Of a stretch of 64,000 nucleotides of DNA, positions 7,484 to 63,235 are shown piece by piece. The position numbers were made by a program, and so were the translations under genes. The stretch comes from Anisus vortex. Taxonomy: Eukaryota; Mollusca; Gastropoda; Planorbidae. Under the pieces are notes generated by a model. The model made no database searches, was not told the origin of the DNA, and worked only from the letters and a program-made list of their open reading frames with translations. The number at the start of each line of letters is the position of its first letter. The stretch's first letter is position 1. The DNA is taken from the NCBI GenBank assembly GCA_949126835.1, contig OX421495.1, positions 25,837,329-25,901,328 of the forward strand, read 5' to 3'.

Positions 7484-7487
7484 TTAA

Positions 7488-36966: not shown

Positions 36967-39640
36967 TTATTTCTTTTTTTCTGGTTCACTTTTTGCAGGA
37001 GTTTTCTCCACATTTCCGCCCCATGCGAAAATGATGCTCAGCAGAGTTACTTGATAGTCTCCACTAGTATCACTTTCCACATCAGATTTCAGGGTGTGTC
37101 CATATTTTGCCTCGTACTTGCTTGTGATAGCTGGTAAATCCACCTTTAAAATGAAAAATTGTAAAAAAAATATTAAATTGCAGCTAAAGAGATGCAACAA
37201 TTTTAATATCTTTTTGACTCCACAAATTGATTTGGAAACATCTAAAGCAAACAGGTGTAAATATAATTTACTGGTAGATTTTAGATAATAATCTGTGAAA
37301 TCTATTAATTACGCTAATTATCTGCAAAGTGTATGATAAAAAATAATGAAATTCAAAGGCTATTGACAAGATAAAAAAATAACTACTTACCTCTGAGCGT
37401 GAAACTAGAATTCTGATTAGTTGCTTGTCATTGGTTCCTAAGCCTTTCATTGACTCGTGTATTCTTTCTGTGAAGAAACTGGTTGGGTCCTGAAGAGATT
37501 TCACTGAAAAAAACATAACATTTGAGGTATAATTCTATTTTTATAAATAATAAATGACGTGATTGAATGCAATGATAAAAAAATTTTTTACGGATATAAA
37601 TAGTGTGGTGATGGAGTATATAAAATGTAAAGAAAATGTATATATATTTTGACGTAATCTAGTGTAGATTATGTATATAGTTTGCACAGACCTAGTGCTA
37701 AGTAGGCATCTTCTGTGTCTCCATGGCTAGCTTTCTTGATGGAATCCATCATACTTTCATTGAATAGCTGTCAATTAGAAATATAAGTACACATTTTTTT
37801 TTTCAGTAGAAACAAATTGAACATGGATTAATGATGTTCTTTAATGTGAGACCTTTTCAAGTAAAATAAAGTATTGCTTCCACTAAAAAGAAAATAAGTT
37901 TAATTCAATGGTTTAATTTAATGAATAAATTACTTTTTCATGCGCTTCTCCTGTAGCAATAACTTGTTCCTGACTGTTGTTGACCAAGATTCTTCTTAAA
38001 GTCTCAGCACTGGGTCTCTGGGATTAAAAAATATATATATATGGCTTTAGTTCATCTGAATTCAATGAATGTATTCCTTGAGTTTTATTTAAACTTTTCT
38101 ACTGTTTTATGTTTATTTCATGTCAGGTGAAGTACCTCATGGATAAGTTTAGCATCCTCCTCTGCCTTAGACTTGTTGACCAATGTATTTTGTTCTCTTT
38201 GTCCACTGACAAGCTGCAACAGCAATTCTCTGAAATCTCCACTGGTATCCTTGACAATTTCCAATTCTAGGTCTTTTTTGTAATCTAGCAAATAAAGTAA
38301 CCATAATGCTCAATTAGCTAGTCTATACAACTTCTGCGGAACAATTTATATATGGCAGTTGAATAAGTGGGAAAGGAAATGCGTGTGTGCAGGACAGTAG
38401 CTTAGCTATAGGGGGCAGCCACTTCAGGCATAAAGGTTTTCATAGATGCCAAAATAAAACTTAAGAAAAATATTTGAAGAGAAAAATCAGCTGACAACAA
38501 TTTGTTATCAACTAAAATTTCAATTCGAGAACAACAATTTTACTACACTATTACACATACCTTCCTTCCTGTTAGTTTATTAATTAATACAATTTAAGAT
38601 TCTAGCTAGATGCTAAGTTTCAGTCTTGCCCCCGAGTTACCCCATTGTGAATGCTATTACCATAATTATTATATCTTTAACTAACTATTCTGTAATATAG
38701 TGTGTGTGGGAAGCAAAATAACTTCACAACCTTGAAAGAACTTGATAATATTTTTTGTTATTGTTATAGATATTTTGATATATTTAGTAAGTATAAGTAT
38801 GCATATTCAGTTATTAAAGACTATGCTGGTTACATTTTTAAATGATGTTGCTAAAAATAAGTGATATTTTCAAAGTGATTTATTAACCAAGAAATTAATT
38901 TGTTTAAGTATCTTACTTCTGTTCTAGAAACAAAACAAATCACTTACTTTGCTTGTATACTTCTTTAATAGCAAGCATTTCATCATTATTCTTGGTGCAG
39001 ATAATTCCAATTAGAGTAGTTTTGTCAGTGTTTAAACCTTTCATTGCTTCATATAAACAGTAAGCATCATATTCCACAGATGTCATCATCATGGCCAGAA
39101 TGGTGTCTTCAAAATCACCACTGAGCTCAGATCTCAAATCTTTCATCAAATCCTGACATTTTTAGGGAAAAACAAAATGGAAAAACATTATATTAAAAAA
39201 ACACAGAAATTTTTTTCTAATTATTCATTTTTACACCTTGATTATGTGTTAACTAAATGTAAAAAAAATCATTTTGTTTCAATGTTTAGTTTTTTTTCCA
39301 AATCTCAAAAATAATTATTATGTTTGATTCAAAAGTAAAAAAAAAACTCATTTTAAACAAACTTTGCTTCATCTAATAGCTTAACATACCGATACATGCA
39401 TTTGCTTTTGTTTGGGAAATCAAAATAAGCTGTGCAACCTAAAATTTGTTTAACAAGTACTGTGCAATAAAAAAAACAAATTACCTGCTTATATAATTCT
39501 TGGTACCTTGCTTTTAGCTTTTGCCTGTTAGCATTGGAGTTTTTGGAAACTATTCTGATAATTGTGTTTTCATCTGTTCCTACTCTGTGCATAGCTTTAT
39601 AAAGCTGTTTAGCATCTTCCTCTTCTTCTATTACAGACTT
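36967..39640 (-). other. Annexin core 7 (C-terminal core)
   Basis: Exons: 39778-39485 (end of core 6, a linker of about ten residues, repeat 1), 39152-38948, 38284-38136, 38017-37934, 37767-37692, 37503-37391 and 37143-36967. It is the most divergent core. Repeat 1 has MHRVGTDEN in place of MKGLGT, and repeat 2 has MKGLNTDK, so two calcium loops are altered. Repeat 4 keeps MKGLGTND and [10 protein letters not shown]. The 84-nt exon is one codon longer than in cores 1-5. After repeat 4 the chain ends in a short lysine-rich tail. Confidence 0.9.
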
Positions 39641-42600
39641 GTCCTCTACCTCTCCAACTTTGTCAATAATCTTGAGAAGAGTCTTCCCATAGTCACCACT
39701 GGTGTCACTCTCAACATCCTGTCTGAGAGGGTGTTCATACACTTTGCGATATCTTCCTTTTATAACTGGCAGGTCCAACTGTCCAAATATAAAACAAAAG
39801 TATTTTTATTTCTTCAACAATGTACCATTTGTTTTCATTTTTTTTAGTTATTGAAAACTTAATCTAAGACAAGATATTTTGGCATTATCAGCTATTCTTA
39901 ACAATCATTAAACTATGTTTTATTATGTTATGCCTAGATTTATTTAAAATATAATTATTTTAGTTATGTCATAACTTAAACCCGATGATTGCATATATTA
40001 TATAGTAGGGTTATTGAATGTGAGGACAAACAATGAATCAATAACTTTATAGGCAAGTATGAGTACCGGTATACAATAAAACAAGGATCATTACCTCAGA
40101 TCTTGAGACCAATATTCTAATTAATTGAGTGTCTTTTGTTCCTAACCCTTTGATAGCATCATTTAGTCTTTCAGTGAAATAATGACTCTGATTTACTAGA
40201 GAATTCACTTTCAAAAGAAAACAAAAAAATTATGTTATGAATCTAATAGTATAGATTAGGAGTAATAGAAAAATATATCTTGAGGATAATGCTTAGCCTC
40301 TTTAAATGATTACTATTAGATTAGTTATAATTGACAAAAGTTAGGCCTACCAAGTGCCAAATAGGCTTTCTCTATATCTCCAGAACTTGCTTTTTTAATG
40401 GATTCCGATAAATCTTCACCATACAGCTAGACAGATACAAATTACAAATGTAGATTAAAAATACATATTCTAAAAGATATACTATAGTTGTGGTTAATGT
40501 TGTTCCAGACATCAAATGTAAGTTAAATTCAACTTGAAAAACTTAGACTACCTTTTTATGTGCAGCTGCAGTTGCCATAATTTGTTCTGGACTGCTCTTA
40601 TTGAATATTTTCTTTAAATTATCCTCTGATGGTTTCTGAGAAGTGAAATTGTGTGAAGGTATTTGTATAATTTTGTTTTCAGGGCTTGTGTTTAATTGAT
40701 TTAGACTAATTCTAATAGGTTTACATGAAAATGCCCTTACAGTATTTTAAAACTATGAACTATTATTAGTTCTTCTTTTTAAACTAGTGTAATATATAAT
40801 ACTATACAATGATTTTGCACTGGATGAATATTTAAATATTTAAAAAAACTACTTCAAATAGTGTTTTTGCATCCTCATCTGCTCTCTTGTCATTGGGTTT
40901 ATCTCCCTTTTCCTTCTTGCTGGATAAAAGCTGAACTAGTAAATCTTCTAACTTCCCTTTAGTTTCTTTTTTTACTTCTGCTTCCAAATCTTTGTTGAAT
41001 ACTGGAATAAAATTATAATAAAGTTAGGAAACAAATTATGTATTTAGAAGAAATCATTAGTCACTGGTACAGGATTGGGAGATTAAAAAAGAAACATTTT
41101 ATTTCTTTAAGTTGCCATCTGACTTGATTCCCAGGAGGAAATTAAGGATAACACACTATACATCCTGTTGAATGAGACATTCTGACATTCAAATGGAGTG
41201 TATAGTGTAGTTAAGGTTCAAGTTCTGTGGCATTTCACTATCAAAATTCTAACAGAGAACAATGACAGAAATTCAAAAACCTCTTTGGTTGGCAATCAAT
41301 GAACTGTAGGAACATGCGGTCCTGTTTCTTTATCAATACAGTTAAAATAACATTATTTACAGGAGCTAATAAGATTATATTTATCTAAATGGTCTATGTG
41401 ATCTTACTTTACTTCAGTTTTGAACCTAGCTATATTTGGACAAAGCCCTAGAAGTTTTTTCTATGTTAGCAATTCTAAGCTATTAGCAAGCTACACTGGT
41501 TCACTAGATAGTATACCAGATTGTATAGGCTACAATTTAAAAGGCCGTGGCAACATCCATGATAGAAAACATTTAGCATTTCATATATAAATAATTTATC
41601 AGTCTCTTCAACTTCAATTATAGTTATATTGTAAACATCGACAAGCAACAATGTCATTTGACAGGTTGTGACTGTCCTATAAACAACATAATATAGGCCT
41701 ACATTCAAAATATTGTTCATAAACATTTGATAGCAAGTTTCTTTCTCTTGTCAATGTGTAAAGAAAGAAACTAGAAATTATATCCATTCATGTATAGGTA
41801 GATAACCTTATTGCCATACTAACATTTTTTGTACTCCTTTTTAACATCCTCTAATTCATGTCCAGATCTGGTACAAATAATATCAATTAGAGTGGCTTCA
41901 TCACAGCCTATTCCCTGCATGGCTTTGTTCAGGCAGTTGGCATCAAATTCAGCTGGACTCATCATCAGTGCCAAGATGGTTTCCTTTAAGTCTCCACTCA
42001 ATTCTGATTCTAAATCTTTCACTAAATCCTTAATGGAATAAAATAATGTGAAAAAAAATCAGTAAAAAATATATATATAATTGAATTGTTTAATTAAAGA
42101 ACCATTTTTTTAAAGTACCGGTAGCCTAAATTAACTATGAATCTTTGTGTACTAACTAAGAAAACATTGTGCAAAAGAAATAACTTTAGAGAGAACGACA
42201 CGACAGCTATTAAGAAAAAGGTGCAAATTAAATAAAAGCAAAGTTAGATGAAAGTTTTTCTTTATTTTTGTTGTTGTGATGATAAATTGATGTTTTTAGA
42301 TCATCATATACAGTCTGACGAAATCACAAAATGGTAGATCGAACAAATTAAAAGGAAAACTTAGGCAGGTAAACCCTTCCATAGAAGCAACATTTGGGAA
42401 CAGAAAATTGCTAAAAACATTAGTTGTGAACAATTCAAGATACTAATTAATTTTGTTTCACTAAAGTTTTAAAAAAAAATTCTGACATTAATATTTGTTT
42501 AGATACGAAATTAGATATTATAGTGCCCATTAAAACACAACAAACCTTTTTTGCATGTTATAGTAAAAAAAAAAAAGCAACAAAAAAATCAATTTATAAA

Positions 42601-45600
42601 AAGACTTAGAAACAAATTCCTTTATAAACTTGCCACTTGCCTGTACATACTTTAAAAAAAAAGACTTAAAATTTTAATACTATAGACTAATATTTTTCTT
42701 TCTATTTTATTACAACCACAAGTGTATGTATTTAGTATGCTACAAAATTGTTTCTGTATTTATATGAGTATGAGTGGTTGTCTAAAGTTGACTATCAATT
42801 TAAATCCACCACACTGTTAATTTTATCTATTGATAAAACACATGAAGAAATGCTTTAAAAAAAGTCTGTGTTTGAAAATAACTTACTTTAGAGTAAAGTT
42901 CATTATATCTTTTCTTAAGAGTTTGTCTTTGAGAGTTGGAGTTCCTGACAATGACCTCAATAATCACATCTTCTTTGGTTCCTAGTCCTTTCATGGCTTT
43001 GTACAATTTGACAGCATCCTCATCATTCTCATTGATTTTATCATCATCCTTCTTTTCTTCCTTTTTCTCTTCTTTCTTCTCTTCTTTTTTCTCCTCCTTC
43101 TTCTCTTCTTTCTTTTCTCCTTTAGCATGCTCTCCTCCAGATTTCTCATCTTTGTCTTTAGTCAATTCTTTCTTCTTCTCTGGTGGCTTCTCCTCACCAA
43201 CTTTATCAATGATCTTGACCAGAGTTTTCTTGTAGTCTCCGCTGGTGTCACTTTCAACATCAGACTTCAAAGAGTGACCATAAAGTTGCTGGTAGTGACC
43301 TTTAATAGCTGGCAGATCCGACTACAAGAGTAAAAAACATTTTCATAAGTAACAACATTTGTTAAGATCACAATTATTTTTCAGCACATTGTACACACTT
43401 ATTAAACCAAGCAAATTAAATTGCTTGCATTATTAGAAATTTTTTTTTCAAGGCTGTAAAATATGGTGAAGTTTCTTCAGGTTCACAAATTAAGAATCTG
43501 TAAACTTGTTCATAATTTACAGTAGCTAAAAAGTCTATAATATTCAAAAGGTTTGGCAAGACATTAGATTTTTTTAAAAGTGTTTATTAAAAATGCAAGT
43601 CCTAAGCAGGTCTACATTATTTACCTCTGAATGGGCTACAATAACGCTGGTCAGTAAAGTCTCTTTTGTTCCAAGCCCTTTCATTGAAGCATTTAGAGTT
43701 TCAGCAAAGAATTCTGATTTATTTTGAGGAGATTTTGCTGAAATAAAAATAAAACATACATTTATTTTTGTAATACCCAAATGTAATTAATTAATTTTTA
43801 ACTTTATATTGAATATTACTGAAACCAAAATAAATATATATATACAATTAATACATATATATAAAAGAGTAAAATATTAGTCATGTCATTTATTATCATA
43901 ATAATGAAAAGTAATTAGAACACATTGTACAAACCTATTGCAATGTATGCCCCCTCAGAATCCCCACAGCCAGCTTTCTTGATAGACACTGCTATGTTTT
44001 CGTCAAACATCTAATTGGAAGAATAAATGATTTTTTAATATGAAACAAAGAGTGAATTACTAAATCTGGTTATTACAAATACTATTTGAGTTGTATTTCT
44101 TTAAAACTTTATGGGGATATTTATTGCTATGATTTTATAAAAAAAATTATTATTATCTTACTAAAAAAACAACAACACCTAAATATATATTACATACTTT
44201 GATGTGATAAACTAATACCTTTTAACCTGTTAAAAAAAAGCATCTTCATAGTAATTAAAATACATCTTAAATTAATTTCAAAGCTTGCAGTGAGAGCTTC
44301 ATTCTCTAATAAAAAGGGAAATAGCCTCAGTGCATCATTCTCTGCATCCCCTTTCATGTTTCTTTTTAAATTCTACAGTCTACACAGCCAAGTGAGAAAA
44401 GTTTCTGTATCCACATCATTAGCGGTAAGGCATGCACAATCAAATGTTAGGCCCAAGACATCAACTTTTAGCAGTAGCCTATCTATTTATGTTTTAATCC
44501 CTGACACCTCTGACAGGCAGGGAAATCAGATAGGCATGCCCTCCAGTCCACGCTATTCTATGCCAGAACTTAAGATTAGTATATTTTATTCTGAGCCAGA
44601 ACTTAAGATTAGTATATTTTATTCTGAGCCAGAACTTAAGATTAGTATATTTTATTCTGAGCCAGAACTTAAGATTAGTATATTTTATTCTGAGCCAGAA
44701 CTTAAGATTAGTATATTTTATTCTGAGCCAGAACTTAAGATTAGTATATTTTATTCTGAGCCAGAACTTAAGATTAGTATATTTTATTCTGAGCCAGAAC
44801 TTAAGATTAGTATATTTTATTCTGAGCCAGAACTTAAGATTAGTATATTTTATTCTGAGCCAGAACTTAAGATTAGTATATTTTATTCTGAGCCAGAACT
44901 TAAGATTAGTATATTTTATTCTGAGCCAGAACTTAAGATTAGTATATTTTATTCTGAGCCAGAACTTAAGATTAGTATATTTTATTCTGAGCCAGAACTT
45001 AAGATTAGTAGATTTTAGTATGTGCCAGAACTTTAGTAGGCCTATACCATATTCTATTCTGGTGAGATGTTAACATAGATTAGTAGATTTTAGTATGTGC
45101 CAGAACTTTAGTATACCATATTCTATTCTAGTGAGATGTTAACATAGTCTACCTTTTCATAAATGTCTGCTGTAGTCCTAATCTGTGCAAAATTGCCTTT
45201 AAAGATCTCTTTGGCCAAGTCTGCTGATGGATTCTGTTAAAATTTCAAACATCTTTAGCTGCTTTCACTGAAGCAAGATTTACACCAAAGAACATTACTA
45301 GTTAAAGAAGTTGATAAAAACAAAATAAACAAAAAAATATGTGATCAAACCTCATGTAAAACTTTAGCATTCTGTTCAGCCAGTGATTGGTCAGATTTGG
45401 CTTCTTTGTCTTTGCTTCCATCTAGAATTTGAACCAATAGATCTTTGTAGTCTCCACTGGTCTCACTTTTTACTTCAGATTTTAAATCTTCTTTGTAGGC
45501 TGATTGATACACAATATTTTAAAACGTGAGCAAATTATGACTTTCATTTTAAAAAAATACTCAATTTTTGCAAAAACACAAAATGTACTATAAAACATTG

Positions 45601-48600
45601 TTTTCTCTAATTTTATCATCTTAAATTATTGATATTTATTTTAAAAGCCAGTTTCTTATACAATGTGGATTAATTTATTAGTGTCAACATGTCTGAATGT
45701 GTGCGAACTGTTCAGTAATTAAACTTCAGTTGATATTTTGTGAATGGCTAAATGAAAATAGAAAGGACTATTAGAGAGTATTTAAGGGGAGGAATTTAAC
45801 ATGTAGTGGACTTTTTAATGCATAGACCTTTGACCTTATGAGCTTCAGAATGTGATTGTACATGTGGACTCAAATAGTTGTAGACTAATGTTATAAAGAG
45901 GTTATTGTGTATGGATAGCTGATAGGCTTCTGTTTGCTGAGATAATAGTTTACTGAAACTTTCCAATGAATGCATTTCATCTTTTTAATATCTACATCTG
46001 GTTTTCTTATTAATTAAAGTTTTAATACGATTGCCAAAGAACTCGATTTATTTTTGTGTGCACCAGCCTATTAATGTTTAAGATTGAACTATAATATTTA
46101 AAATATAAATAAATTTATTTTTTCAATTTTATACATAAATGGACTTTCAGTTTTTTTTAAAAACGGAAAATCTTTATACCACAACTTTAAAACGGAAAAT
46201 TTTTTTCTTACCATTTTTGTAAGCTTTGCTAATGTCATTGAGTTCTGCTGTTGTCTTGGTACAGATGAAAGTATTCAGTACTGCTTCATCAGTCCCCACA
46301 CCTTTCATTGCCTTGTTTAAAACGTAGGAATCATACTCTACAGGTGGCATCATCAATCCCAGAATTACTTCTTTGAAGTCACCACTCAGTTCCGAGTCTA
46401 AGTCTTTTACTAAATCCTGAAGAATGGAGAAATGAAATGCTTTCATGTAAATATAGTCATAGAAATTATTTCATTAAATCCCAAAGAATTGAGAATTGAA
46501 ATAATCATAATTATAATCATAGTACAATATTTTTTCTTTAAGCTATTATCTACAATTGGATACTTTTTAACATTTGTGTTTTCTGTAATGATTGATAACT
46601 AAATTGTATACCTTTTTATAAAGCTCATTGTATCTTTTCTTAAGAGTTTGTCTTTGAGAGTTAGAGTTCCTGACAATGACCTCAATAATCACATCTTCTT
46701 TGGTTCCTAGTCCTTTCATGGCTTTGTACAATTTGACAGCATCTTCATCATTCTCATTGATTTTATCATCATCCTTCTTTTCTTCTTTCTTCTCTTCTTT
46801 CTTCACATCTTTCTTTTCTTCTTTCTTCTCTTCTTTTTTCTGTTCTTTCTTTTCTTCCTTCTTTGCTTCTGTTTTAGCATGAACAACTTGAGATTTTTCA
46901 GCTTGTACAGGTTGTGCCTCTGTACTTGTCTGTGCTGGTTTTTCTTTCTTTCCTTCCTTCTTCTTCTCTGGTGGCTTCTCCTCACCAACTTTATCAATGA
47001 TCTTGACCAAAGTTTTCTTGTAGTCTCCACTGGTGTCACTTTCAACATCTTTCTTCAAGGAATGACCATACAGTTGTTGGTAATGACCTTTGATAGCTGG
47101 CAGATCCAACTGGAAAGATACAACTTTTGGCATCAGCATATCGCTCTGATTTATTTAGAAACATTACAATGCAAATGGTGATAAAAATTTTTTTACATAC
47201 TCTTATTTTTATTTAACACATATTTGTCACACACTTGTTCACTTTTGTAGATTTTTAGCCATCCAGTTATTTTAATACCTCCACCATGTGACCCATCAAA
47301 TTATAACCAGCCTAAAAATAACTTATAACTGATATGAATTTCCATACAATTTTCAAAGGATTGTGCCTAAAATTGGGTTCAAATATTAAAAAAAAGTCAG
47401 TTTGGCTGGCAGAATAGAGTTATAGTTATATGGCTGGTATAGTTATATGGCTAGTATAGTTATATGGCTGGTATAGTTATATGGCTGATATAGTTATACG
47501 GCTGGTATAGTTATATGGCTGGTGTATTTATATGGCTAGTATAGTTATATAGCTGGTATAGTTATATGGCTGGTATAGTTATATGGCTGGTATAGTTATA
47601 TGGCTGGTATAGTTATATGGCTAGTATAGTTATATGGCTAGTATAGTTATACGGCTAGTATAGTTATATGGCTACTATAGTTATATGGCTGGTATAGTTA
47701 TATGGCTAGTATAGTTATATGGCTGGTATAGTTATATGGCTAGTATAGTTATATGGCTAGTATAGTTATATGGCTGGTATAGTTATATGGCTGGTATAGT
47801 TATATGGCTGGTATAGTTATATGGCTGGTATAGTTATATGGCTAGTATAGTTATATGGCTAGTATAGTTATATGGCTAGTATAGTTATATGGCTAGTATA
47901 GTTATATGGCTAGAATAGTTATATGGTTAGTCTAGTTTTATGTCTAGTATAGTTATATGGCTGGTATAGTTATATGGCTAGTATAGTTATATGGCTAGTA
48001 TAGTTATATGGCTGGTATAGTTATATGGCTAGTATGCTTACAACACAATAATCTGATTTAAGTTTAGAACATTCCTTTTTTGCCATTCAGTAGTTTTGCT
48101 GGGACCAATTCATGACCCGGCATTTGGGAAACACTCAAAGATTATAGCTTGCAATGTACAGCAGTGTATATTTGAATGTTGTGTACAATAAACATAAGTA
48201 ATTTAATTCCTCATGACATATGTTGCTATCATGGATTTATTCATGAAAAAAGAAATTGTTTCTTTGTTCTTTCTTTTTCAAAATCATGACTTAGCTAAAA
48301 ACTGCTTTAGCTTAGTTTTCAGTTCAATTTTGATGATAATTTATAGTTTTGCATGACTCACCTCTGATCTAGATATAATGATGCTGGTCAGTAAAGTGTC
48401 TTTTGTTCCAAGACCTTTCATTGAAGCATTTAGAGTTTCAGCAAAGAATTCTGATTTGTTTTGAGGAGATTTTACTGCAACCAAAAAAACAAAATTACTC
48501 CTGAATAATAACTGTTTCTCTGGTTTGTTATATTAAAAATATTTCAACATTATTAGAGCCAAACAAACACTAAAAAATTATGTGTAAAAAAAAAGAAATT

Positions 48601-51600: not shown

Positions 51601-54600
51601 AACTGATTCAAGATATATATATACAAAGAACAACAAATTGTTTACTTCTGCTCTTGAGATCAAAATGCTCATCAGTTGTGTATCTTTGGTGCCCAATCCT
51701 TTCATTGCATTATTTAAACTTTCAGCATAGAAAATTGGTTTGTCTTGAGATTTTACTGAAACATAATTGTAAATATTTGTTGAAGACAGTATTATTGAAC
51801 TTTTCCACAAGTTGTAACGTTACAACCATAATAATTGAATATTATTTTATTAAAGATAATAATTCTTTGGTACATTTATTTTAAATCTGTTAAAACACAT
51901 TCCTAGTTTAAACATCTTTCTTTGTCAACAGTTCCAAGTAATTGAAAACTGTATAAATCAACAATCAATAAAGTCAAATGATCTTTTCAATAAAATCTTT
52001 TCTGATTTCATACTTGTATCAATTTTAATAAAGCTCTAATTTTCTCCTATATAATATATAATGCCATATAATGACACGCATACCATTAGCTTATCATTAG
52101 TGAAAGTAACCAATCTTTCAAAGACTATGCACCACTGGAGCTTATAGAGAATTGAATCCCCTTAAAGAATGTAATATTAGTATTATTATTATGAATACAA
52201 TAAAGCCAAAATTGCAAAATTGTTGAAAATCATAGATTATGTCCCCTTGTAGAATATCACAGGACAGGGGTCGGCAACCTAAAGCACGCATGCCAAACTT
52301 GGCATGCAGAGAAATTTTCAATGGCACGCGAGAGAACTATAAGAGGTGTTTTTTATTGATGAAAAAGACAACAACAACATTTTCCGGTTCTGAATGAGGA
52401 AAACTGATTGTTGAAGCCGATGTTTCTGAATGACATAACGACACATTTCAGTGAGTTGAACTTGCATTTACAAGGACCACTGGAATAAATTTGCATTGAA
52501 ACTGGACATATCTTGGCGTGAAATCAAGTTCAAAACATTTACATACCTATATTACATTCCTATATTAAAGCAAATATTAAGATGGATAGTTGGGCATTTT
52601 CAGAAATACTTCAAAGCCCTCAAAGCGGACTTTTAAAACAATTTTTTTTTCATACTACATCAAGCCAAATTGGTTTGATCTTACTACAAACTTCTTAGAT
52701 GTAGATTGTTTTTTTTAAGTGTAGGGATACTGGCGATTTTAAAATGCAGCAAGTTGAATTTTAAATATCTAAAAAAATGGGCGTCCAAATGTGCCCATTT
52801 GTGGAAAAGATCTGGAAGGAGGCTGCTTAGGAAAGTCATCTGCTATTCGCAACTGCTAGGCATTTGCTCTTTTACTTTCAGCTATTTAACTTACACATTT
52901 ACAACAACAGATTTTATCGCACATGAAAGCTGTTTTTAGCATATAAAGAGATCATCTACACTTAAACACCCAGGAGCGACTAAATATGTATCTTATATTA
53001 TACAATTAGCGAAGAGCATTCAAAACAAGGCGCTCATTAATAGATGCAGACTGATCACATTGAAAAGAGTTTTTGTGCTCATCTTCTTTAATTAAACATA
53101 AATATAAGTAATTCTAAAACAAATTTTATTTGTATTATTATTTTAATAAATAAAAGATACCTATTTAATAGCACTATATTATGTAATTTCTGTAATTATT
53201 AATGTTTAAGAGATAAACTTCTTAAATGGACAAACAATTAATGCAGGGGGGGTGTGTTAGATCCTCACCTTGACAACCAAATGATAATGTTTAGACAATA
53301 ATTACCATTAATGTGAAAGTTTATTAATAAAATATTGTGTTTGATATAAATGCAAATAAAAAGGATGATAATCACAAACAAATTAATTCAGTATTATATA
53401 TAAAACGCTTTAACGATTTTCTTAATAAATTTCCTTTGCTTTTGGTCTTTGTCTTGCTACGGATTTAAATTAATTTTCCTATAAAAAATAAATTTAAAAA
53501 GTATAATAGAGCAGGCCGTTGGCACGCTGAATGATTTAGAAAACCTAGTTTGACACACTATTAGTAAAAGGTTGCCGACCTTACCTTACGGATATGAACC
53601 CCAGTAAATTAACACAGGTTATGCACAATTGAAGCTTATTACAGATTATGTCCCCTTGTATAATATGATTGGATATCTATAATCCCAGTAGCTTAACACA
53701 GGTTGTGCATAACTGTTTGAAATCTTAGGATATGTACAATATTAAACTTGTCATATTTACATGTAGAATATATTGTATAGTTATAGTATTATAGTTCAGT
53801 AAATCTTGGCATAAGCTTAACTGAAGAGATTTCAGGTATCTTCATCATGAACAGTTATGTTGTTTGATGGTATCTATCTCAAATTTAAAAAAAAATTCAA
53901 ATGTACATGTCCAATAGCAATGAAACAAATCTAAGTCTCACAAAGTAACTTACACAGAGCTAAGTAAGCACCCTCTGCATCTTTAGCATTCGCTTTTTTG
54001 ATAGACACGGACATATCTTCATTGAACAGCTAAGAAAGAAAAATCAAGTTCATTCACCACCTTGTAAGTAAAAAATTTTAATATCAAACCAAAGACAACC
54101 AATAATTTTCATCTATTTATTTTAGCATTATTAGAATTATAAGGAAATAATTCAATTTAACTATGATTAGTTTGGCATCTGTTCTATTTTTAATACAGTA
54201 TTCCAATAGTCTTACAGTTTTGTGAGCAGACGCTGTGGCATTTATTTGCTCAAATGTTCCCTTGAAGATTTCTTTAGCAGTTGAGGCTGATGGTTGCTTT
54301 AAACAACAACAACAATTAGGTTGTGAAAATATCAAGATTAGATTTGTAAATTGCTTTTTAAGAATTCAACAAATCTTTTTATACTCAAGAAACAAAGCTA
54401 ATACTGATAAAATATTTCATGAAATTTTTGTGAACTTAATATTACTGCAGCTTATGTTATTAATGTTACAATTCATATAATGTTCTCAAAATAAAAAAAT
54501 GATACAAATCAATTCAATTAGGAAATTGAAAAATTACATCATGAATAGCCTTTGCGTCTGCTTCTGCTTTAGCTTGATCAAGCTTAGCTCCCTTATCTTT

Positions 54601-57600
54601 CTTTCCTCCTAAAATCTGGAGCAGAAGATCTTTGTAGTCACCACTTGTCTCTTTCTTTATTTCTGATTCAAGATCTTTCTTGTAAGCTAAAAAAAAAAAA
54701 AAAAAAAAAAAGACCAAAATTTATATTTTCAAATTTCAGTCACAAAAAATATATATAAAAAATTATAACAAATTTTCTACACTATAAAATTTGTGTAAAA
54801 ACCTTTTTTATAGACTTTATTGATTTCCTGAAGTTCTGCTGTAGTCTTAGAACAAATGACTGTTGTTAAAACAGACTCATCAGTGCCAATGCCTTTCATG
54901 GCCTTGTTTAAAATGTAAGCATCAAAGTCCACAGGCTCCATCATGAGGCCAAGTATAGTTTCCTTAAATTCTCCACTTAGTTCAGAATCCAAATCTTTTA
55001 CCAGATCCTGACAGACAAATGTTTTCAATAGAATACATTCAAAATTTAAAACAACTTCTGCATTAAAAATGTTAACAAAAAGCAATAGTAGATCATAGTA
55101 ACTTTTCCATATAAAGTTCTTAACAAAAATATAAGAGCTAGTTACCTTTTTATAAAGTTCATTATATCTCTTTTTAAGAGTTTGTCTTTGAGAGTTAGAG
55201 TTTCTGACAATGACCTCAATAGTCACATCTTCTTTGGTGCCTAGTCCTTTCATGGCTTTAAATAGTTTCACAGCATCTTCATCATTCTCATTGATTTTAT
55301 CATCATCCTTCTTTTCTTCTTTTTTCTCTTCTTTCTTCACTTCTTTTTTCTCTTCCTTCTTTTCTTCTTTCTTCACTTCTTTTTTCTCATCCTTCTTCTC
55401 TGCAGTCTTTACCTCTTTTTTCTCTTCTTTCATCACTTCTTTTTTCTCTTCTTTCTTCACTTCTTTCTTCTGTTCACTTTTAGCATGAACCTCTTTAGTT
55501 TTTTCAACCTTTACAGCTTGAGCCTCCGCTTTCTTCTGTGCTGGTTTTTCTTTCTTTCCTTCTTTCTTCTTCTCTGGTGGCTTCTCCTCACCAACTTTAT
55601 CAATGATCTTGACCAAAGTTTTCTTGTAGTCTCCACTGGTGTCACTTTCAACATCTTTCTTCAAGGAATGACCATACAGTTGTTGGTAGTGACCCTTGAT
55701 GGCTGGGAGAGTGGACTGTAAAAAAAATTGTTTACAAAATAAACCATGAGGAAAAAAATGAATTTTTATACCCTAACAGCTAACTTATATTTTCTTATAT
55801 AGGTATCATGTACAGATTCCTATACTAATGTCATTAAATTCTGTTAAATATTTATTAGTTACTTATGAATATTTTTGTTTGTAAATGGAAGTGGGTAATA
55901 TTTATGTTTATGAATTACTTACACATTGCCTGAACTAGACAGGTTAACTCAACAATCTTACAACTAACATTAACTAATACCCTTATCAAAATGCAAGATT
56001 AGACTCAAAATCAAAACAAGCATAGGATGCAGATGACTTCGGGAAAGAATGAGCGTCTGTCACAGATAAGACAAGATAATTCTGATAATCCTGAGACTGA
56101 ATTTACCTCTGATGTTGCAACTAATAGTCTAATTAGCTGTGTGTCTTTTGTACCAAGTCCTTTCATGCTACTGTTTAGTCTTTCAGCTAAATATTCTGAC
56201 TGGTTCTCTTGGGACTTCACTAAAATACAAACACAATGGAATGTAAATTAAACTTTAACCTTGAACTAGGACTAACAACAGTCATTCGTACAATGATTTC
56301 CATTTTGCTCAATGGCTCACCAGTTACATGGCATTGTGTAGCCAGCACAAACAACAAAAATATTTTCTCTTAATTGAATTGTTTTTTTCCCCATTAACAT
56401 TTAGTTTGCTACTAGAAATGACCAAATATTTATTTCTAACAAATCTATTACTAAAACAACAAATGAAGATAACAACACAGATATTGTCAACATTCTTTAC
56501 AAATAAAATGCAACTCATAATGTAATATTTAAGTGATGTAGGTTGACATAAACATATATTGCATCATATGCTCTAGGTTTATATAAAAATTATAAACATA
56601 TGTATATATATATATATAATGTTAGTATCAAAATTTAATTAGATTTGGCTCACAAAGTGCAATGTATGCTGATTCAGCTTCTCCACATTGGGCCTTCTTT
56701 ATAGATTCTTCTATTCCCTGGTCAAACATCTAAACAAAAACAAAAATCCACCATTTACTAAGATAAAGATCATTATTACACAAAGACTTTATTATGATGT
56801 TATTTTAAAGGTCATTGAAATAACGTCTTTGATTGAATCCATGTTTGTTCCCCCCAAAAATCTAAATGCACTCGTTAATTCTTCATTCAAATTTTATTAA
56901 ATAAGACTAATAAAGTAAAATTCTAAAATTTAGCTTTAAAAATGTACCTGTAAATGGGCATTGGCAGTGGCTGTAATCTGAGCTGGACTACTTTTAAATA
57001 ATTCTTTTACAGTTGCAGCTTGGGGTGTCTGAAATAGATCCACATTGTCTTTGAATAAACTTTGATTTTTTAGTTTGTTTAATATGATTATGTCAATGTT
57101 TATATATATAATATATATATCTGGGCCTACAAATACAGATCAGTCTCCGCCTACAAACCTCATGGAGAACTTTGGCCAGATTTTCTGCTTTTGTCTGATC
57201 AATTTTTGAGTCTTTTTCTTGCTTGCCATTTAGTTTTAGAAGCAGCAAGTCCTTGAGATCTCCACTTGTTTCTTTTTTGATAGCAGACTCCAAGTCATTT
57301 TTATACTCTGGAAATATTCAAGTAAATTTAATGTAGCTAAATGTACCGTGTCAAAATATTGTGCTCTTTTTTTAAGAAACAATTTTTCATTTTTGTTAAA
57401 TCCAGTATCATAATGAGATTTTAATAAGTATTTTTTTAAGAAACAATTTTTCATTTTTGTTAAATCAAGTATCATAATGAGATTGTAATAAGTATTTTTT
57501 TAAGAAACAATTTTTCATTTTTGTTAAATCAAGTATCATAATGAGATTTTAATAAGTATTTTTTTAAGAAACAATTTTTCATTTTTGTTAAATCAAGTAT

Positions 57601-60600
57601 CATAATGAGATTTTAATAAGTATTTTTTTAAGAAACAATTTTTCATTTTTGTTAAATCAAGTATCATAATGAGATTGTAATAAGTATTTTTTTAAGAAAC
57701 AATTTTTCATTTTTGTTAAATCAAGTATCATAATGAGATTTTAATAAGTATTTTTTTAAGAAACAATTTTTCATTTTTGTTAAATCAAGTATCATAATGA
57801 GATTTTAATAAGTATTTTTTTAAGAAACAATTTTTCATTTTTGTTAAATCAAGTATCATAATGAGATTTTAATAAGTATTTTTTTAAAAAACAATTTTTC
57901 ATTTTTGTTAAATCAAGTATCATAATGAGATTGTAATAAGTATTTTTTTAAGAAACAATTTTTCATTTTTGTTAAATCAAGTATCATAATGAGATTTTAA
58001 TAAGTATTTTTTTAAGAAACAATTTTTCATTTTTGTTAAATCAAGTATCATAATGAGATTTTAATAAGTATTTTTTTAAGAAACAATTTTTCATTTTTGT
58101 TAAATCAAGTATCATAATGAGATTTTAATAAGTATTTTTTTAAGAAACAATTTTTCATTTTTGTTAAATCAAGTATCATATTGAGATTTTAATAAGTATT
58201 TTTTTAAGAAACAATTTTTCATTTTTGTTAAATCAAGTATCATAATGAGATTTTAATAAGTATTTTTTTAAGAAACAATTTTTCATTTTTGGTAAATCAA
58301 GTATCATAATGAGATTTTAATAAGTATTTTTTTAAGAAACAATTTTTCATTTTTGTTAAATCAAGTATCATAATGAGATTTTAATAAGTATTTTTTTAAG
58401 AAACAATTTTTCATTTTTGTTAAATCAAGTATCATAATGAGATTGTAATAAGTATTTTTTTAAGAAACAATTTTTCATTTTTGTTAAATCAAGTATCATA
58501 ATGAGATTTTAATAAGTATTTTTTTAAGAAACAATTTTTAATTTTTGTTAAATCAAGTATCATAATGAGATTGTAATAAGTATTTTTTTAAGAAACAATT
58601 TTTCATTTTTGTTAAATCAAGTATCATAATGAGATTTTAATAAGTACTGTTATTAATTTCATTTTCTTAAAACATTCAACTTTGACCTACCTTTCTTATA
58701 AATTTTGGAGATTTCTTTTAATTCTTCATTGTTCTTAGAACAAATAATATCAATGAGAGTTGCTTCATCAGTTCCAAGACCTTTCATGGCCTTGCTTAGA
58801 TAGTAGGCGTCAAAATCAACAGGGGACATCATCAGAGCTAAAATTGTCTCTTTGAAATCCCCACTAAGTTCCGAGTCCAAATCTTTCACTAGATCCTGTG
58901 TGTTGCAAGTAATATCTTACCAATATGAAACTAAAAATACTTGTACAATTTTAGTATAGGCCCTTTTCTTATTAAAGAAAGTGAAGAGCTTTGCAATAAT
59001 AGATAACAAATATTTAGCTTTTTAAAGTTTCTAATAAAAAATCTGACAAATGTTTCTCATACAGTTTTGTACAAAATATTTAGTTTGAAGATTTTTTTTA
59101 AATTTATAAAAAAACTTATAAATAACTTATTATAAAGCACATTTTCTTTGTTTATTCTTGTTTTACCTACCTTTTTATAAAGCTCATTGTATCTTTTCTT
59201 AAGAGTTTGTCTTTGAGAGTTAGAGTTCCTGACAATGACCTCAATAATCACATCTTCTTTGGTTCCTAGTCCTTTCATGGCTTTGTACAATTTGACAGCA
59301 TCCTCATCATTCTCATTGATTTTATCATCATCCTTCTTTTCTTCTTTCTTATCTTCTTTCTTCACATCTTTCTTTTCTTCCTTTTTCTCTTCTTTCTTTA
59401 CCTCTTTCTTTTCTTCTTTTTTCTCTTCTTTCTTCACATCTTTCTTTTCTTCCTTTTTCTCTTCTTTCTTTACCTCTTTCTTTTCTTCTTTTTTCTCTTC
59501 TTTCTTCACATCTTTCTTTTCTTCCTTTTTCTCTTCTTTCTTTACCTCTTTCTTTTCTTCTTTTTTCTCTTCTTTCTTTACATCTTTCTTTTCTTCTTTC
59601 TTCTCCTCCTTCTTGTCTTCTTTCTTTACATCTTTTTTATCTTCTTTCTTTTTTTCGGTGTGGTCATTCTTCTCAGGTTTAGCTTGTGCCACAGTCACCT
59701 TTTCTTCTTTCACAACTGGCTTTTCTTCCTTTTTCTTCTCCTTCTTGCCTTGAACATCTTTGGACTTTTCCATAATCAAAACACCCTTGGCTGGACTGGG
59801 AGACCTGGCCTTTTCCTTAGCTGGTGATTTGACTTTTGGCTTCTCCTCACCAACTTTATCAATGATCTTGACCAAAGTTTTCTTGTAGTCTCCACTGGTG
59901 TCACTTTCAACATCTTTCTTCAAGGAATGACCATACAGTTGCTGGTAGTGACCTTTGATGGCTGGGAGGTCAAGCTGATGATTGTATATAAATGTTTTGA
60001 TAAATGTCTTATATCATAACATGATATTCTAAACGAGACTAGAATGTTTATGAATTTAAATTAATTTTTTAAAATGTACCTCAGATCTGGAAACCAGAAT
60101 CCAGATAAGTTGAGAATCATCAGTTCCTAAGCCTTTCATAGATTTGTTAAGACATTCAGCAAAATGAGCAGATGGCTCTTCATGGGATTTCACTAGGGAA
60201 AAACAACAAGACCAATTCTACAGCCTTAGCTTTATGTTCAGAATAAGGATGCAAAAGATGCAAATAAACTTGTCAACAAAAAAGCAACAAAGCAACTGTT
60301 TTTTATATATATATTTCTTTTAAAATATTGAAAATAGTATAGTCTAATTGAAAATAAAGAAAGATTTTTTAAAAATTACAACAAAAATTTACATTTTGTA
60401 ATTTAAAAAAAAAGAATTTTATTCAACTAATAATTCTCATTGTTTTTATTTTACAAAGGATTTGATCATATGTATGCATGCATGGAACAACGTAAATATG
60501 GATCAGTAAGATAATAAATCTATTAGAGATATAAACCTAGACTTACTTAGTGCCAGATAGGCTGATTCTGAATCACCAGCACAAGCTTTCTTAATTGACT

Positions 60601-63235
60601 CAGACATGTCTTCATTGAAAAGCTACAAAATATTTTATAAAAATTAATTTCATGTAGAAAAATGATATATATATCCTTCAAAATTATTATTTTTTTATCT
60701 ACTGTAAATAGAAACTTATGCACCGAATGTATAATTAACTTTTTAACCAAAGGGAAACATTTTACCTGTCTATGAGCATCAGCAGTAGCTTTATAATGAG
60801 AAGGACCTCCTTTGAAAATAGATTTCACAACAGCGGCAGATAAATTCTGAAGACATAAAAAAATCATATTGAACATTTTTTTTAACACCCTCATGATCAA
60901 TGAGTTCTTACAAAAATTTTCTTTGAAACTATTTTTTTGTGTATTGGCTACATATTTAAAATTAGTTGTGAATGGGCTTGTTAATGAAAATATTACTTCA
61001 TGTAAAAGTTTTGCATCTTTTTCTGCTTTCTCTTTGTCTGATCCTGAGCTTTTGTCTACTTTCCCACTCAGGAGCTGCAACAAAATTTCTTGAAAGTCTC
61101 CGCTTGTTTCTTTCTTTACCATGGAGTCCAGATCTTTTTTGTATTCTGATTGAACAAAAGGAAATGTCAGGTTACATGACCATGTCAAATAGTTTGAAAA
61201 AAATTAACCAAAATCACTGAATTTAATATTCTATCATGAACTAATTTAGTTTTTTTACAGTATGGGACTTAGAGCAAATGAGATGTCAAAAACTTGTAGT
61301 ACAGTATGGGACTTAGAGCCAATAAGATGTCAAAAACTTGTAGTACAGTATGGGACTTAGAGCCAATGAGATGTCAAAAACTTGTAGTACAGTATGGGAC
61401 TTAGAGCCAATGAGATGTCAAATACTTGCAGTACATTATGGGACTTAGAGCCAATGAGATGTCAAAAACTTGTAGTACAGTATGGGACTTAGAGCCAATG
61501 AGATGTCAAAAACTTGTAGTACAGTATGGAACTTAGAGCCAATGAGATGTCAAAAACTTGTATGAAAACCTTGTTTCATAGTCGTAGTTAAGTATTTTAC
61601 AGAAGTATGAAATTCCATCAGATTTAGAATTTTAGCTTCTTGATATCAGGTATATCAGTTACACATTTTTTTATCCTATGCAACTTGAGACATTTTTTCA
61701 AATGTACCGTATATACTTGCGTATAAGTCACACTTTTTTTAAAGAAAAATTTGACAAAAAGTAGGGGTGCGACTTATACACCCGACACTGTTTTTGAAAA
61801 GTTCGTAAAACATCACAACTCTGTTATACAGTTTCCTACATAACCCCTATAGTTGATTGGAGTTATGTATAATTATTAGGATATGCTTTTATTTTATTAT
61901 GTTTGCCTTATGCACGATTAAAACAATTTTTTAAGGAAAGTTTCCAAATTAGGGTGAATATTTAGTCACTTTTATGTTTAAAAGGTATGCATTTTTGAGA
62001 TATTAAAAGGCAGTGTAACCCGGGAAGTCGGGGTGCGACTTATGCACGGGTCAATGACAACGTATAAGGAAAAAAATCTTAAACTAGGGGTGCGACTTAT
62101 ACATCGGTGCGACTTATACGCGAGTATATACGGTAATCTATTTACAATAAAACTATATACTAATGTTTAACACAAAGTAAATATCTCAAAACCTTTTTTG
62201 TATATTTTCTTGATTTCTTCTAAGTCAGCTGTTGACTTGGTACAAAGTATACTGACTAGAAGGTCTTCATCAGTGCCTAAGCCTTTCATTGCCTTGTGCA
62301 GAGTGTAAGCATCAAGCTCAGCAGGTGGCATCATCAGGGTTAGAATTGTTTCCTTGAAATCACCACTGAGTTCTGATTCTAGATCTTTCACCAGTTCCTG
62401 TTTGTAAATACAACAATGTTCAAGCTTGGATTGAAACAATATTTCAAAAGAAAAGGGAAGGAAAAACAACTTTTTAAAAGGCTGTCAGGGTTCTGTATTA
62501 AAAATATAAAGAGTCACACTTTAAATCATATTATTCTGGACAATAAATTATTACTAAAAACTGTGTCTTAGCTGTCATTAGATTTTAATTTTTACTTTTC
62601 TAACACTATTATTATATGAAGAATATAGAATAACAATATTTTATATTAACCTTTTTATAGAGTTCATTGTATCTTTTCTTAAGAGTTTGTCTTTGAGAGT
62701 TAGAGTTCCTGACAATGACCTCAATAATCTCATCTGCTTTGGTTCCTAGTCCTTTCATGGCTTTGTACAATTTGACAGCATCCTCATCATTCTCATTGAT
62801 TTTATCATCATCTTTCTTTTCTTCTTTCTTCTCTTCTTTCTTCACATCTTTCTTTTCATCTTTTTTCTCTTCTTTCTTCACATCTTTCTTTTCATCTTTA
62901 TTCTCTTCTTTCTTCACATCTTTCTTTTCTTCTATCTTTACATCTTTTTCTTCTTTTTTATCTACTTTTTTATCATCTTTCTCCTTAAACTGGACATTTT
63001 TAGTTTTTAAATCAACAGTCTTTTCCTCTTTAACAGCAGGTTTCTCTTGACTTTTTTCTTTTGCCTTTTCCTTTGGCGTCTCCTGTTTTTTAGGCTTGGG
63101 TTTTTCTTCACCAACTTTATCAATGATCTTGACCAGAGTTTTCTTGTAGTCTCCACTGGTGTCACTTTCAACATCTTTCTTCAAGGAATGACCATACAGT
63201 TGCTGGTAGTGACCTTTGATGGCTGGGAGGTCAAG
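36967..63235 (-). CDS. Giant poly-annexin, C-terminal 2,799 residues: seven complete four-repeat cores plus part of an eighth
   Basis: Forty-three exons with AG/GT borders join in phase to 8,400 nt ending in TAA (36969-36967); the 5' end lies beyond the window. Each core uses six exons with constant lengths: a variable exon (end of repeat 4, linker, start of repeat 1), then 205, 149, 81 or 84, 76 and 113 nt (110 in core 3). The variable exon both starts and ends in phase 0, so core and linker are one polypeptide, not neighbouring genes. Annexin hallmarks recur: [24 protein letters not shown] and [15 protein letters not shown]. Annexins bind acidic membranes through calcium held by GxGT loops plus an acidic residue about 40 positions on. 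Repeats 1, 2 and 4 keep this arrangement; repeat 3 does not. No signal peptide or membrane segment is seen in this part. The C-terminus is [11 protein letters not shown]. Exact splice choices are predictions; the overall architecture is strongly supported. Confidence 0.93.
39650..43035 (-). other. Annexin core 6
   Basis: Exons: 43321-42887, 42028-41824, 41001-40853, 40635-40552, 40426-40351, 40207-40095, then the start of 39778-39485. Repeat 1 is the standard [16 protein letters not shown]. Repeat 2 reads MQGIGCDEA, with threonine of the GxGT loop replaced by cysteine. Repeat 4 reads IKGLGTKD. It shares the 84-nt exon with core 7, so cores 6 and 7 group together. The linker to core 7 lacks the Lys/Glu repeat altogether ([14 protein letters not shown]). 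Confidence 0.9.
43190..46765 (-). other. Annexin core 5
   Basis: Exons: 47109-46612, 46416-46212, 45499-45351, 45233-45153, 44010-43935, 43737-43625, then the start of 43321-42887. Its repeat-2 exon encodes almost the same protein as core 4 (SDYS for YDAYI-type changes only), pointing to a recent duplication. Loops: [27 protein letters not shown]. The Lys/Glu linker after it is about 50 residues. Confidence 0.9.
44562..45018. repeat. 33-bp minisatellite, about 14 copies, annexin intron
   Basis: The unit is GAGCCAGAACTTAAGATTAG plus TATATTTTATTCT, nearly invariant. It is followed to about 45150 by two larger diverged units containing TATGTGCCAGAACTTTAGTA and GTGAGATGTTAACATAG. Because 33 is a multiple of three, the plus strand shows a 242-codon open frame; it is antisense within an intron and has no splice or start support. 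Confidence 0.9.
47421..48034. repeat. 17-bp minisatellite, about 36 copies, annexin intron
   Basis: The unit is TATAGTTATATGGCTGG with G/A variation in the last bases; occasional units differ by one base. It lies in the intron between the repeat-4 exon of core 4 and the following linker exon. Confidence 0.95.
48609..48756. mobile_element. short TTAA-flanked MITE, annexin intron
   Basis: The left end CCCCTTAGTTACCATGCGTC and the right end (reversed) CCCTTTATCTGACGCA are related inverted termini, with TTAA at 48605-48608 and 48757-48760. The CCC start and TTAA duplication fit piggyBac-type elements. At 148 bp there is no coding capacity. Confidence 0.55.
49637..49911 (-). mobile_element. tRNA-derived SINE, reverse orientation, annexin intron
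   Basis: Read on the minus strand it begins GGGGCACGGTAGCCAAGCGG, a tRNA-like head with an A box. A decayed B box follows (GAGTTTAATTCC), then a body shared with the copy at 13026-13290, including the CCTGACATTAGTTGGGGTAA region. It ends with CAGTTTGGTCCGAAGGGTAC. A plus-strand TA-rich tail AAATAAAGTAAGTAAAT-like sequence adjoins. Confidence 0.8.
52265..53587. mobile_element. larger hAT-type element, no transposase, annexin intron
   Basis: The left end CAGGGGTCGGCAACCTA and the right end AAAAGGTTGCCGACCTTA are inverted. Subterminal blocks (TTTTCAATGGCACGCG on the left, CACGCTGAATGATTTAGAAA on the right) match the 204-bp MITE at 23982-24185, so they are one family. The 1.3-kb interior has no recognisable transposase. 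It has landed in a local repeat containing AGATTATGTCCCCTTGTA, found on both sides. The right boundary and target duplication are blurred. Confidence 0.6.
55008..55145 (-). other. 138-bp annexin intron open in frame
   Basis: The intron between the linker exon of core 3 and its repeat-2 exon is 46 codons long, keeps the frame and contains no stop. If retained it would add a hydrophobic stretch (for example [12 protein letters not shown]). Donor GTAACT and acceptor GTCAG are present, so it is probably normally removed. Confidence 0.6.
55590..59320 (-). other. Annexin core 2
   Basis: Exons: 59974-59171, 58895-58691, 57307-57159, 57028-56948, 56729-56654, 56219-56107, then the start of 55715-55146. 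Loops: [27 protein letters not shown]. The preceding linker exon is the longest in the window, with about 170 residues between cores. A 64-bp satellite of about 20 copies fills the intron between 58691 and 57307. Confidence 0.9.
57372..58646. repeat. 64-bp satellite-like array, about 20 copies, annexin intron
   Basis: Unit landmarks are AAGAAACAATTTTTCATTTT, GTTAAATCAAGTATCATAAT and GAGATTTTAATAAGTATT. Copies are almost identical, with a recurrent T/G change in GAGATT(T/G)TAA. The array ends about 45 bp from the 5' splice site of the repeat-2 exon of core 2 (exon ends 58691). Confidence 0.95.
61261..61562. repeat. 44-bp minisatellite, about 7 copies, annexin intron
   Basis: The unit runs TATGGGACTTAGAGCCAATG, AGATGTCAAAAACTTGTAGT, ACAG. 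Copies vary by single bases. No coding or structural role is evident. Confidence 0.9.
61707..62133. mobile_element. TA-flanked DNA transposon derivative
   Basis: The left end CCGTATATACTTGCGTATAA and the right end (reversed) CCGTATATACTCGCGTATAA are near-perfect inverted repeats flanked by TA (61705-61706, 62134-62135). Internal GGGGTGCGACTTATAC motifs recur near both ends. TA duplication suggests a Tc1/mariner/pogo-type element. At 427 bp it is non-autonomous. Confidence 0.75.

Follow-up and report, generated by a model that had tools for sequence, protein, structure and literature searches.

Annexins are textbook proteins of one core, in one case of two, and a locus of Anisus vortex in which annexin repeats follow one another far beyond that number raises the question of whether they all belong to one gene, how such a gene could have arisen, and what its product could do. 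The window, that is, the whole stretch of 64,000 nucleotides analysed (C4:25,837,329-25,901,328), lies on a contig of 55.7 Mb in a genome of 863 Mb and 159 contigs, and the gene runs out of it into the sequence upstream. As regards gene structure, repeats and motifs, a nine-core annexin gene is real in this genome; the single protein that it would encode is a prediction.

Structure and extent of the gene

The exon model was built from conserved reading frames and from the splice sites common to the units. On the minus strand, from 63,235 down to 36,967, the window contains 43 exons with 2,800 codons including the stop, that is, 2,799 residues, which comprise seven cores of six exons each and a C-terminal exon, or, counted in repeats, 28 whole ones in cores 2-8 and the closing part of core 1; the exon, residue and repeat counts of the original prediction were thus reproduced to the base. 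Its figure of at least seven and a half cores held as a minimum but was understated, because the upstream sequence completes core 1 and adds a further core, here called core 0, so that the whole gene has nine cores (eight of them canonical), 36 repeats and 57 exons. All 56 introns have GT-AG ends, and the predicted gene model is a single open frame of at least 3,931 residues with one terminal stop and no frame break across the 57 exons, its product having a mass of about 445 kDa and a pI of 8.8.

Each core is made up of six exons, E1 to E6, of which E1 carries the end of repeat 4 of the preceding core, then the linker, and then the opening part of repeat 1. As had been claimed, the end of a core shares an exon with the beginning of its successor in seven cases, namely in E1 of cores 2-8, and none of the seven has an in-frame stop; together with the one open frame through 56 introns, these shared linker exons support the earlier reading of the locus as one multi-core gene. 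The junction phases are identical over cores 1-8, each six-exon module running from phase 0 to phase 0, and the exon lengths are nearly constant over the same eight cores: 205 nt for E2 and 76 nt for E5 in all of them, 149 nt for E3 in seven (191 in core 1), 81 nt for E4 in six and 84 nt in two, and 113 nt for E6 in seven (110 in core 4). Every core exon is open, compared with 1-14% of the exon-length windows taken from the introns of this gene.

Table 1. Features of the locus, of its upstream sequence and of ordinary annexin genes. Plain positions are those of the window; L001 (C4:25901329-25911328) and L002 (C4:25911329-25921328) are same-genome sequences upstream of the window part of the gene; C2, C3, C9 and C17 belong to the same genome.
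Feature	Position	Strand	Remarks
First AATAAA past the stop codon	36952..36957	-	possible poly(A) signal; weak evidence, AT-rich surroundings
C-terminal exon	36967..37143	-	core 8 repeat 4 end, short Lys/Glu tail, stop codon
Core 8 body	37391..39152	-	exons 38948-39152, 38136-38284, 37934-38017, 37692-37767, 37391-37503; PF00191 249.7 bits
E1 linker exon of core 8	39485..39778	-	linker of just 8 aa
Core 7 body	40095..42028	-	exons 41824-42028, 40853-41001, 40552-40635, 40351-40426, 40095-40207; PF00191 249.7 bits
E1 linker exon of core 7	42887..43321	-	56-aa linker
Core 6 body	43625..46416	-	exons 46212-46416, 45351-45499, 45153-45233, 43935-44010, 43625-43737; PF00191 231.3 bits
E1 linker exon of core 6	46612..47109	-	77-aa linker
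Core 5 body	48362..50710	-	exons 50506-50710, 49970-50118, 49471-49551, 48814-48889, 48362-48474; PF00191 242.6 bits
E1 linker exon of core 5	50812..51477	-	133-aa linker
Core 4 body	51646..55007	-	exons 54803-55007, 54538-54686, 54216-54296, 53954-54029, 51646-51755; PF00191 228.6 bits; has solved relatives
E1 linker exon of core 4	55146..55715	-	101-aa linker
Core 3 body	56107..58895	-	exons 58691-58895, 57159-57307, 56948-57028, 56654-56729, 56107-56219; PF00191 238.3 bits
E1 linker exon of core 3	59171..59974	-	179-aa linker, longest in the window; 36-bp minisatellite coding 12-residue Lys/Glu-rich units
Core 2 body	60080..62397	-	exons 62193-62397, 60997-61145, 60766-60846, 60547-60622, 60080-60192; PF00191 249.7 bits
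E1 linker exon of core 2	62651..63235	-	core 1 repeat 4 end, 106-aa Lys/Glu-rich linker, core 2 repeat 1 start
Intron between cores 1 and 2	63236..64000	-	runs off the window; gene continues upstream in the same genome
Core 1 body exons	L001:13-125, 686-761, 1020-1100, 1623-1813, 2147-2351	-	upstream genome sequence
600-residue exon	L001:3059-4858	-	Ser/Asp/Lys-rich stretch and core 1 start; upstream genome sequence
Degenerate core 0 exons	L001:5284-5421, 6362-6465, 7477-7669, 7893-8038, 8887-8971; L002:15-128, 531-625, 1110-1164	-	upstream genome sequence
Ordinary annexin loci	C9:1120188-1123119, C9:1129698-1133818		side by side
Ordinary annexin locus	C17:24253446-24261029
Ordinary annexin locus	C2:39626125-39631372
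Ordinary annexin loci	C3:44973685-44979283; C3:45390150-45397070

In the upstream part, core 1 starts within an exon of 600 residues, of which 554 form a stretch where Ser/Asp runs alternate with Lys-rich blocks; an acceptor marks the start of this exon, in which the first Met does not come until residue 385. Core 0 consists of eight exons with matching phases and 310 residues, in which PF00191 finds four stretches (105.6 bits in all), and most of its length can be matched to solved annexins. The donor that closes core 0 and the acceptor that opens the 600-residue exon share phase 0, and the join between them is predicted. Two core 0 exons have splice acceptors with low scores (2.7 and 3.1), and the core may be a remnant in decay. 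The exon scan of this upstream strand kept seven exons with a top score of 46.4, while the control, run on the opposite strand of that region, retained four with a top score of 76.9, some of which may be real coding sequence or transposon pieces; since the control scored higher, the scan by itself proves nothing, and core 0 is supported instead by its matches in Pfam and the PDB. A first coding exon with an ATG was not found upstream of core 0, where the scan for ATG exons with usable donors returned weak, competing candidates, one of which (rc 23341-23455) may belong to the gene upstream. Other weak HMM matches upstream and downstream of the gene look like chance (E 0.66-4.6).

That same-strand upstream neighbour (L003:4051 down to L002:6546, minus) is a hand-joined exon chain that matches Hmw_CFAP97 (PF13879, 61.4 bits), a family linked to the cilium or flagellum. 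About 5 kb separate its last exons from core 0, and because the last two found look to be in phase 0 at both ends, a transcript joining the CFAP97-like gene to the annexin is possible. Elsewhere on the minus strand of the window, an ORF of 370 residues with a zinc-knuckle-like stretch (26674-27783; PF14392 at 17.1 bits, below its cut-off of 27) is perhaps a retroelement gag, and one of 145 residues (13820-14254), with no Pfam match, reads to us like a TPR protein, presumably of the TTC7 kind. Four introns of the annexin gene each contain a minisatellite: 44554-45033 (33 bp x 14.5), 47421-48035 (17 bp x 36), 57367-58646 (64 bp x 20) and 61256-61562 (44 bp x 7).

Annexin identity and candidate calcium sites

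PF00191 describes annexin repeats, each some 66-70 residues long, and all nine spliced cores score above its curated cut-off of 25 bits, cores 1-8 at 229-257 bits, and the bodies of these eight align end to end. The profile is found by hmmscan in four stretches in seven of the nine cores and in three in cores 4 and 5, where the missed repeat is probably repeat 3. A search of the whole genome with the same profile, which ignores introns and hence gives counts that are lower bounds, returned at least 53 exon-level matches, all above the cut-off, of which 30 fall on this stretch (28 in the window and two just beyond). Cores 4 and 0, the two that were compared with solved structures, match annexins among the rows shown.

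Each of cores 1-8 has three candidate type II calcium sites, situated in repeats 1, 2 and 4, which makes 24 in all. The search pattern was written to include three altered loops, found in cores 7 and 8, and GxGT is strict in 21 of the 24; in all 24 the residue at +42 from the first motif position is Asp or Glu, the spacing of G30 and E72 in the annexin A5 site. The fit is to position 42: within 37-41 past the motif, an acidic residue occurs in 17 of 21 only. All eight of these cores are without the AB-loop type II site in repeat 3, where the loop is shortened, and GxGT is absent from core 0. Losses of some sites are common in the family, amounting to about one third of annexin domains, plus repeat 3 in the second half of annexin A6, whose C-terminal tetrad likewise is without a type II site in its third repeat (PMC3588008). 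The description of the product as a multivalent calcium-dependent membrane binder, offered in the original prediction, is a fair inference from the 24 candidate sites.

Annexin A6 is the obvious comparison, in that it too has more than one four-repeat core per chain with a linker between them, although it has two cores and eight repeats as against nine cores and 36 repeats here; it is not known to have long Lys/Glu linkers or a Ser/Asp/Lys stretch. When whole sequences are scored, it also ranks first among solved chains, with E 1.5e-107 on core 4 and E 3.2e-40 on core 0, but only because both of its cores are summed. By the best single stretch it is not the nearest relative of either: on core 4, annexin A7 (8w5s) reaches 203.9 bits and outscores either A6 core (198.8 at best), and on core 0, annexin VI gives 76.0 bits versus 103.2 for a chain named ‘Annexin’ (6b3i). 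Annexins A7 and A11 resemble the present gene in having a low-complexity region attached to an annexin core, but theirs is described as a proline-rich, disordered N-terminal region ahead of one core, while here charged tracts lie between many cores.

According to two reviews, mainly on vertebrates, annexins have four repeats, and eight in annexin A6 only (PMC10882027, PMC3588008). No annexin with more than eight repeats appears in the titles and abstract openings of the open-licence annexin papers listed; an apparent many-repeat match goes back to the wording ‘one or more annexin repeats’ (PMC2909932), and a tapeworm survey reports proteins of 125-419 residues (PMC11195529). The statement in the original prediction that no annexin with this many cores is known agrees with these mainly vertebrate accounts and with that sample of the literature. 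An already annotated orthologue in another species is quite possible.

Origin of the array and exchange between its exons

Six ordinary annexin loci were recognised in the same genome from exon-level PF00191 matches (one each on C2 and C17, two each on C3 and C9; Table 1). Like cores 1-8, they have GT-type AB loops, and their matches are interrupted ahead of the ‘DL’ of repeat 1, where cores 1-8 have the E1/E2 junction (a position taken from match ends, not from splice sites). Unlike the giant gene, each of them has one core, as judged from the same exon-level matches, and the two that were aligned are 34-41% identical to cores 1-8; five of the six show repeat 3 with a GTDE loop in one stretch, which was not seen in the sixth. 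Their introns also differ: an intron with GT/AG ends directly before the GxGT of repeat 2, or its remnant, is found in all six and in core 0, and in none of cores 1-8, and repeat 3, which is split by an intron in cores 1-8, is undivided in core 0 and in five of the six. In a tree of core bodies, which took two of the six ordinary annexins, stitched from tblastn pieces so that branch lengths are rough, cores 1-8 are separate from core 0 and those two (ultrafast bootstrap 96%, FastTree 0.966); core 0 groups with the ordinary annexins on a very long branch, its exact position being unsafe.

The simplest history consistent with these patterns would be that a single core was altered first and was then multiplied to eight. 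Core 0 would have retained the intron pattern of the ordinary annexins, while one sister core with the altered pattern would have been multiplied as a six-exon module running from phase 0 to phase 0; the cores would have diverged afterwards, with the linker exons kept alike by gene conversion or some similar exchange.

Judged by the divergence between its copies, the array is old. Among cores 2-7, the mean proportion of synonymous sites that differ (pS) is 0.70 for E2 (15 pairs), 0.80 for E3 (15), 0.71 for E4 (10), 0.78 for E5 (15) and 0.64 for E6 (10), after the exclusion of pairs of unequal exon length (which left 21 of 28 pairs for E3, 16 of 28 for E4 and 21 of 28 for E6, and inner sets of 15, 10 and 10), and non-synonymous differences (pN) in the same core bodies are well below this, at 0.18-0.34. 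By this comparison of pS with pN, the core bodies are old copies under purifying selection. E1 is quite different: over the same cores (15 pairs each), its mean pS is only 0.25 in the first 43 codons and 0.21 in the last 50, and its nucleotide identity is 93-94%, amid near-saturated exons and mostly unrelated introns. In global alignments of the 100-bp intron flanks of the linker exons, mean identity is 62% before and 66% after, versus 62% for shuffled sequence (one shuffled flank per pair), with a range by pair of 56 to 68% before, and of 56 to 80% after, where cores 5/6 reach 80%, cores 2/6 reach 73%, and the remaining 13 pairs do not exceed 69%. This homogeneity would be best explained by gene conversion or unequal exchange confined to the exon; a possible alternative is that the DNA sequence as such is under strong selection. 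The exception seen among the core bodies is E2 of cores 5 and 6 (96% identity, pS 0.16), whose likeness extends into the intron after E1, while their E3 is 76% alike; we read it as another probable exchange tract, and a partial younger copy is also possible.

These same data bear on whether the locus could be an artefact of assembly, or else a series of annexin genes that are separate or dead, a reading that we find hardly credible. Tandem units of 2.6-5.6 kb, the size found here, commonly cause misassembly; however, the introns that flank the linkers are mostly at or near the shuffle level, with clear likeness for cores 5 and 6 only, synonymous sites in the core bodies are close to saturation, pN staying well under pS, and the contig is long. 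Likeness limited to the linker exons, between old core bodies and mostly unrelated introns, thus disfavours an artefact, and the collapse of units in assembly, which the original prediction had itself named as a danger to its claim, is contradicted by the near-saturated cores and the mostly differing introns. Assembly duplication is rejected on the same grounds. Against separate or dead genes stand the intact frame through all 57 exons and the exons shared by adjoining cores, and a row of separate genes is rejected in view of these stop-free linker exons, five of seven of which have no Met in the linker.

The linkers and the predicted protein

The linkers before cores 2-8, their ends being set by fixed motifs, have the lengths given in Table 1, and the six Lys/Glu-rich ones (cores 2-7; 56-179 aa) are 64-77% charged, with a net charge near zero. 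Four residues apart, like charges far outnumber opposite ones in these six (29-100 pairs versus 1-6; z -4.3 to -9.7 against shuffles), while three apart opposite pairs are slightly more frequent than like ones, inside the shuffle range (z 0.6 to 1.2); in other words, the repeating EEKK pattern sets like charges four apart, the reverse of the classic salt-bridge pattern of single alpha-helices. Several linker exons contain 36-bp minisatellites, with nine copies at 59,329-59,651 and further arrays from 46,770, 50,972, 55,308 and 62,809, from which it would be expected that linker length differs between individuals.

It could be supposed that these linkers are rigid single alpha-helices that fix the distances between the cores, in which case the protein would serve as a molecular ruler and not as a loose tether. 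The AlphaFold2 model of the core 3 linker exon has a 77-residue helix at residues 125-201, preceded by a disordered stretch, its confidence being middling (10-residue mean pLDDT about 46-84) in a model that is poor overall (mean pLDDT 61, pTM 0.24). Peptides of the E2K2 type are reportedly non-helical. According to excerpts of the literature, highly charged regions are often helical (PMC10602382), the scoring of single alpha-helices uses both i+3 and i+4 charge pairs (PMC5812594), and in Glu/Lys block peptides the measured helicity is strongly order-dependent, with 65% for (E4K4)2 and 22% for (K4E4)2 (PMC9281390). The charge pattern of linkers 2-7 is opposite to that of E4K4-type helices at i+4 and within the shuffle range at i+3, and we regard the ruler as somewhat doubtful. 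We lean, without being sure, towards a tether that is flexible or has weak helicity; the linkers may bend instead of forming rigid spacers.

What the locus would encode, and this we consider probable, is one giant annexin with nine four-repeat cores in a row, acting as a calcium-switched, multivalent membrane tether; the one transcript, the binding, the avidity and the bridging are all predictions from the sequence. From the N-terminus it would have the degenerate core 0 without GxGT, the 554-residue Ser/Asp-Lys stretch, and cores 1-8 with their linkers. On a rise in cytosolic calcium, the convex membrane face of each of cores 1-8, which would share the five-helix repeat fold of the family, would dock on acidic phospholipid through repeats 1, 2 and 4; with many cores per chain, weak and reversible contacts would add up to a steep, high-avidity switch, and the charged linkers would allow either a string of beads on one membrane or the bridging of neighbouring membranes or vesicles. 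There is a precedent for bridging in annexin A6: when calcium is low, its two cores lie coplanar on a single membrane, and when calcium is high, they attach to two membranes (PMC3588008). A part in secretory, shell- or mucus-forming cells, as the original prediction proposed, would be speculative.

Two other products of the same gene have to be weighed. The gene, one in the DNA, could give rise to several shorter proteins through alternative promoters, the skipping of phase-0 modules, or intronic poly(A), with the full-length form being rare, and this we judge unlikely. Any six-exon module could be skipped in frame, as it has phase 0 at both ends, and two in-window linker exons (cores 3 and 4) have an in-frame Met within the linker; however, none of the seven has a stop, and in the other five (cores 2, 5, 6, 7 and 8) there is no Met except that of the first repeat itself, so that a conventional start there would need another location. 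It is quite improbable that the chain is a polyprotein cut at its linkers to release single annexins. A 10-residue motif with KKDDDK, which to us resembles an enterokinase-type site, stands directly before the first repeat in each of cores 1-7, but it is missing in core 8, and the end of E1 where it lies is homogenised between the cores (by the low pS given above), which accounts for its identity without selection for cleavage; moreover, the protein has no known signal peptide, and a protein of the cytosol would have no contact with a protease of this kind. The motif was more probably carried along by exon homogenisation, and only possibly serves as a processing site.

Returning to the single giant annexin, a bolder version of it may be put forward tentatively, the balance tipping slightly against it. 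The gene would be a modular ‘annexin polymer’, the longest annexin described, that grows by in-frame six-exon modules; its linker exons, with 36-bp minisatellites between near-identical half-repeats, would be exchange hot spots that keep the linkers alike while the cores diverge, and its product would be a calcium-triggered, ultra-avid tether of several membranes, whose reach varies between individuals through the number of linker repeats.

A chain of nine cores shifts the question from how a single disc binds a membrane to the abilities of many discs strung together under calcium control, among which could be steep cooperativity, the bridging of several membranes, or the building of a lattice. 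At the same time, eight old sister cores together with homogenised linker exons would make a clean case for concerted evolution confined to an exon.
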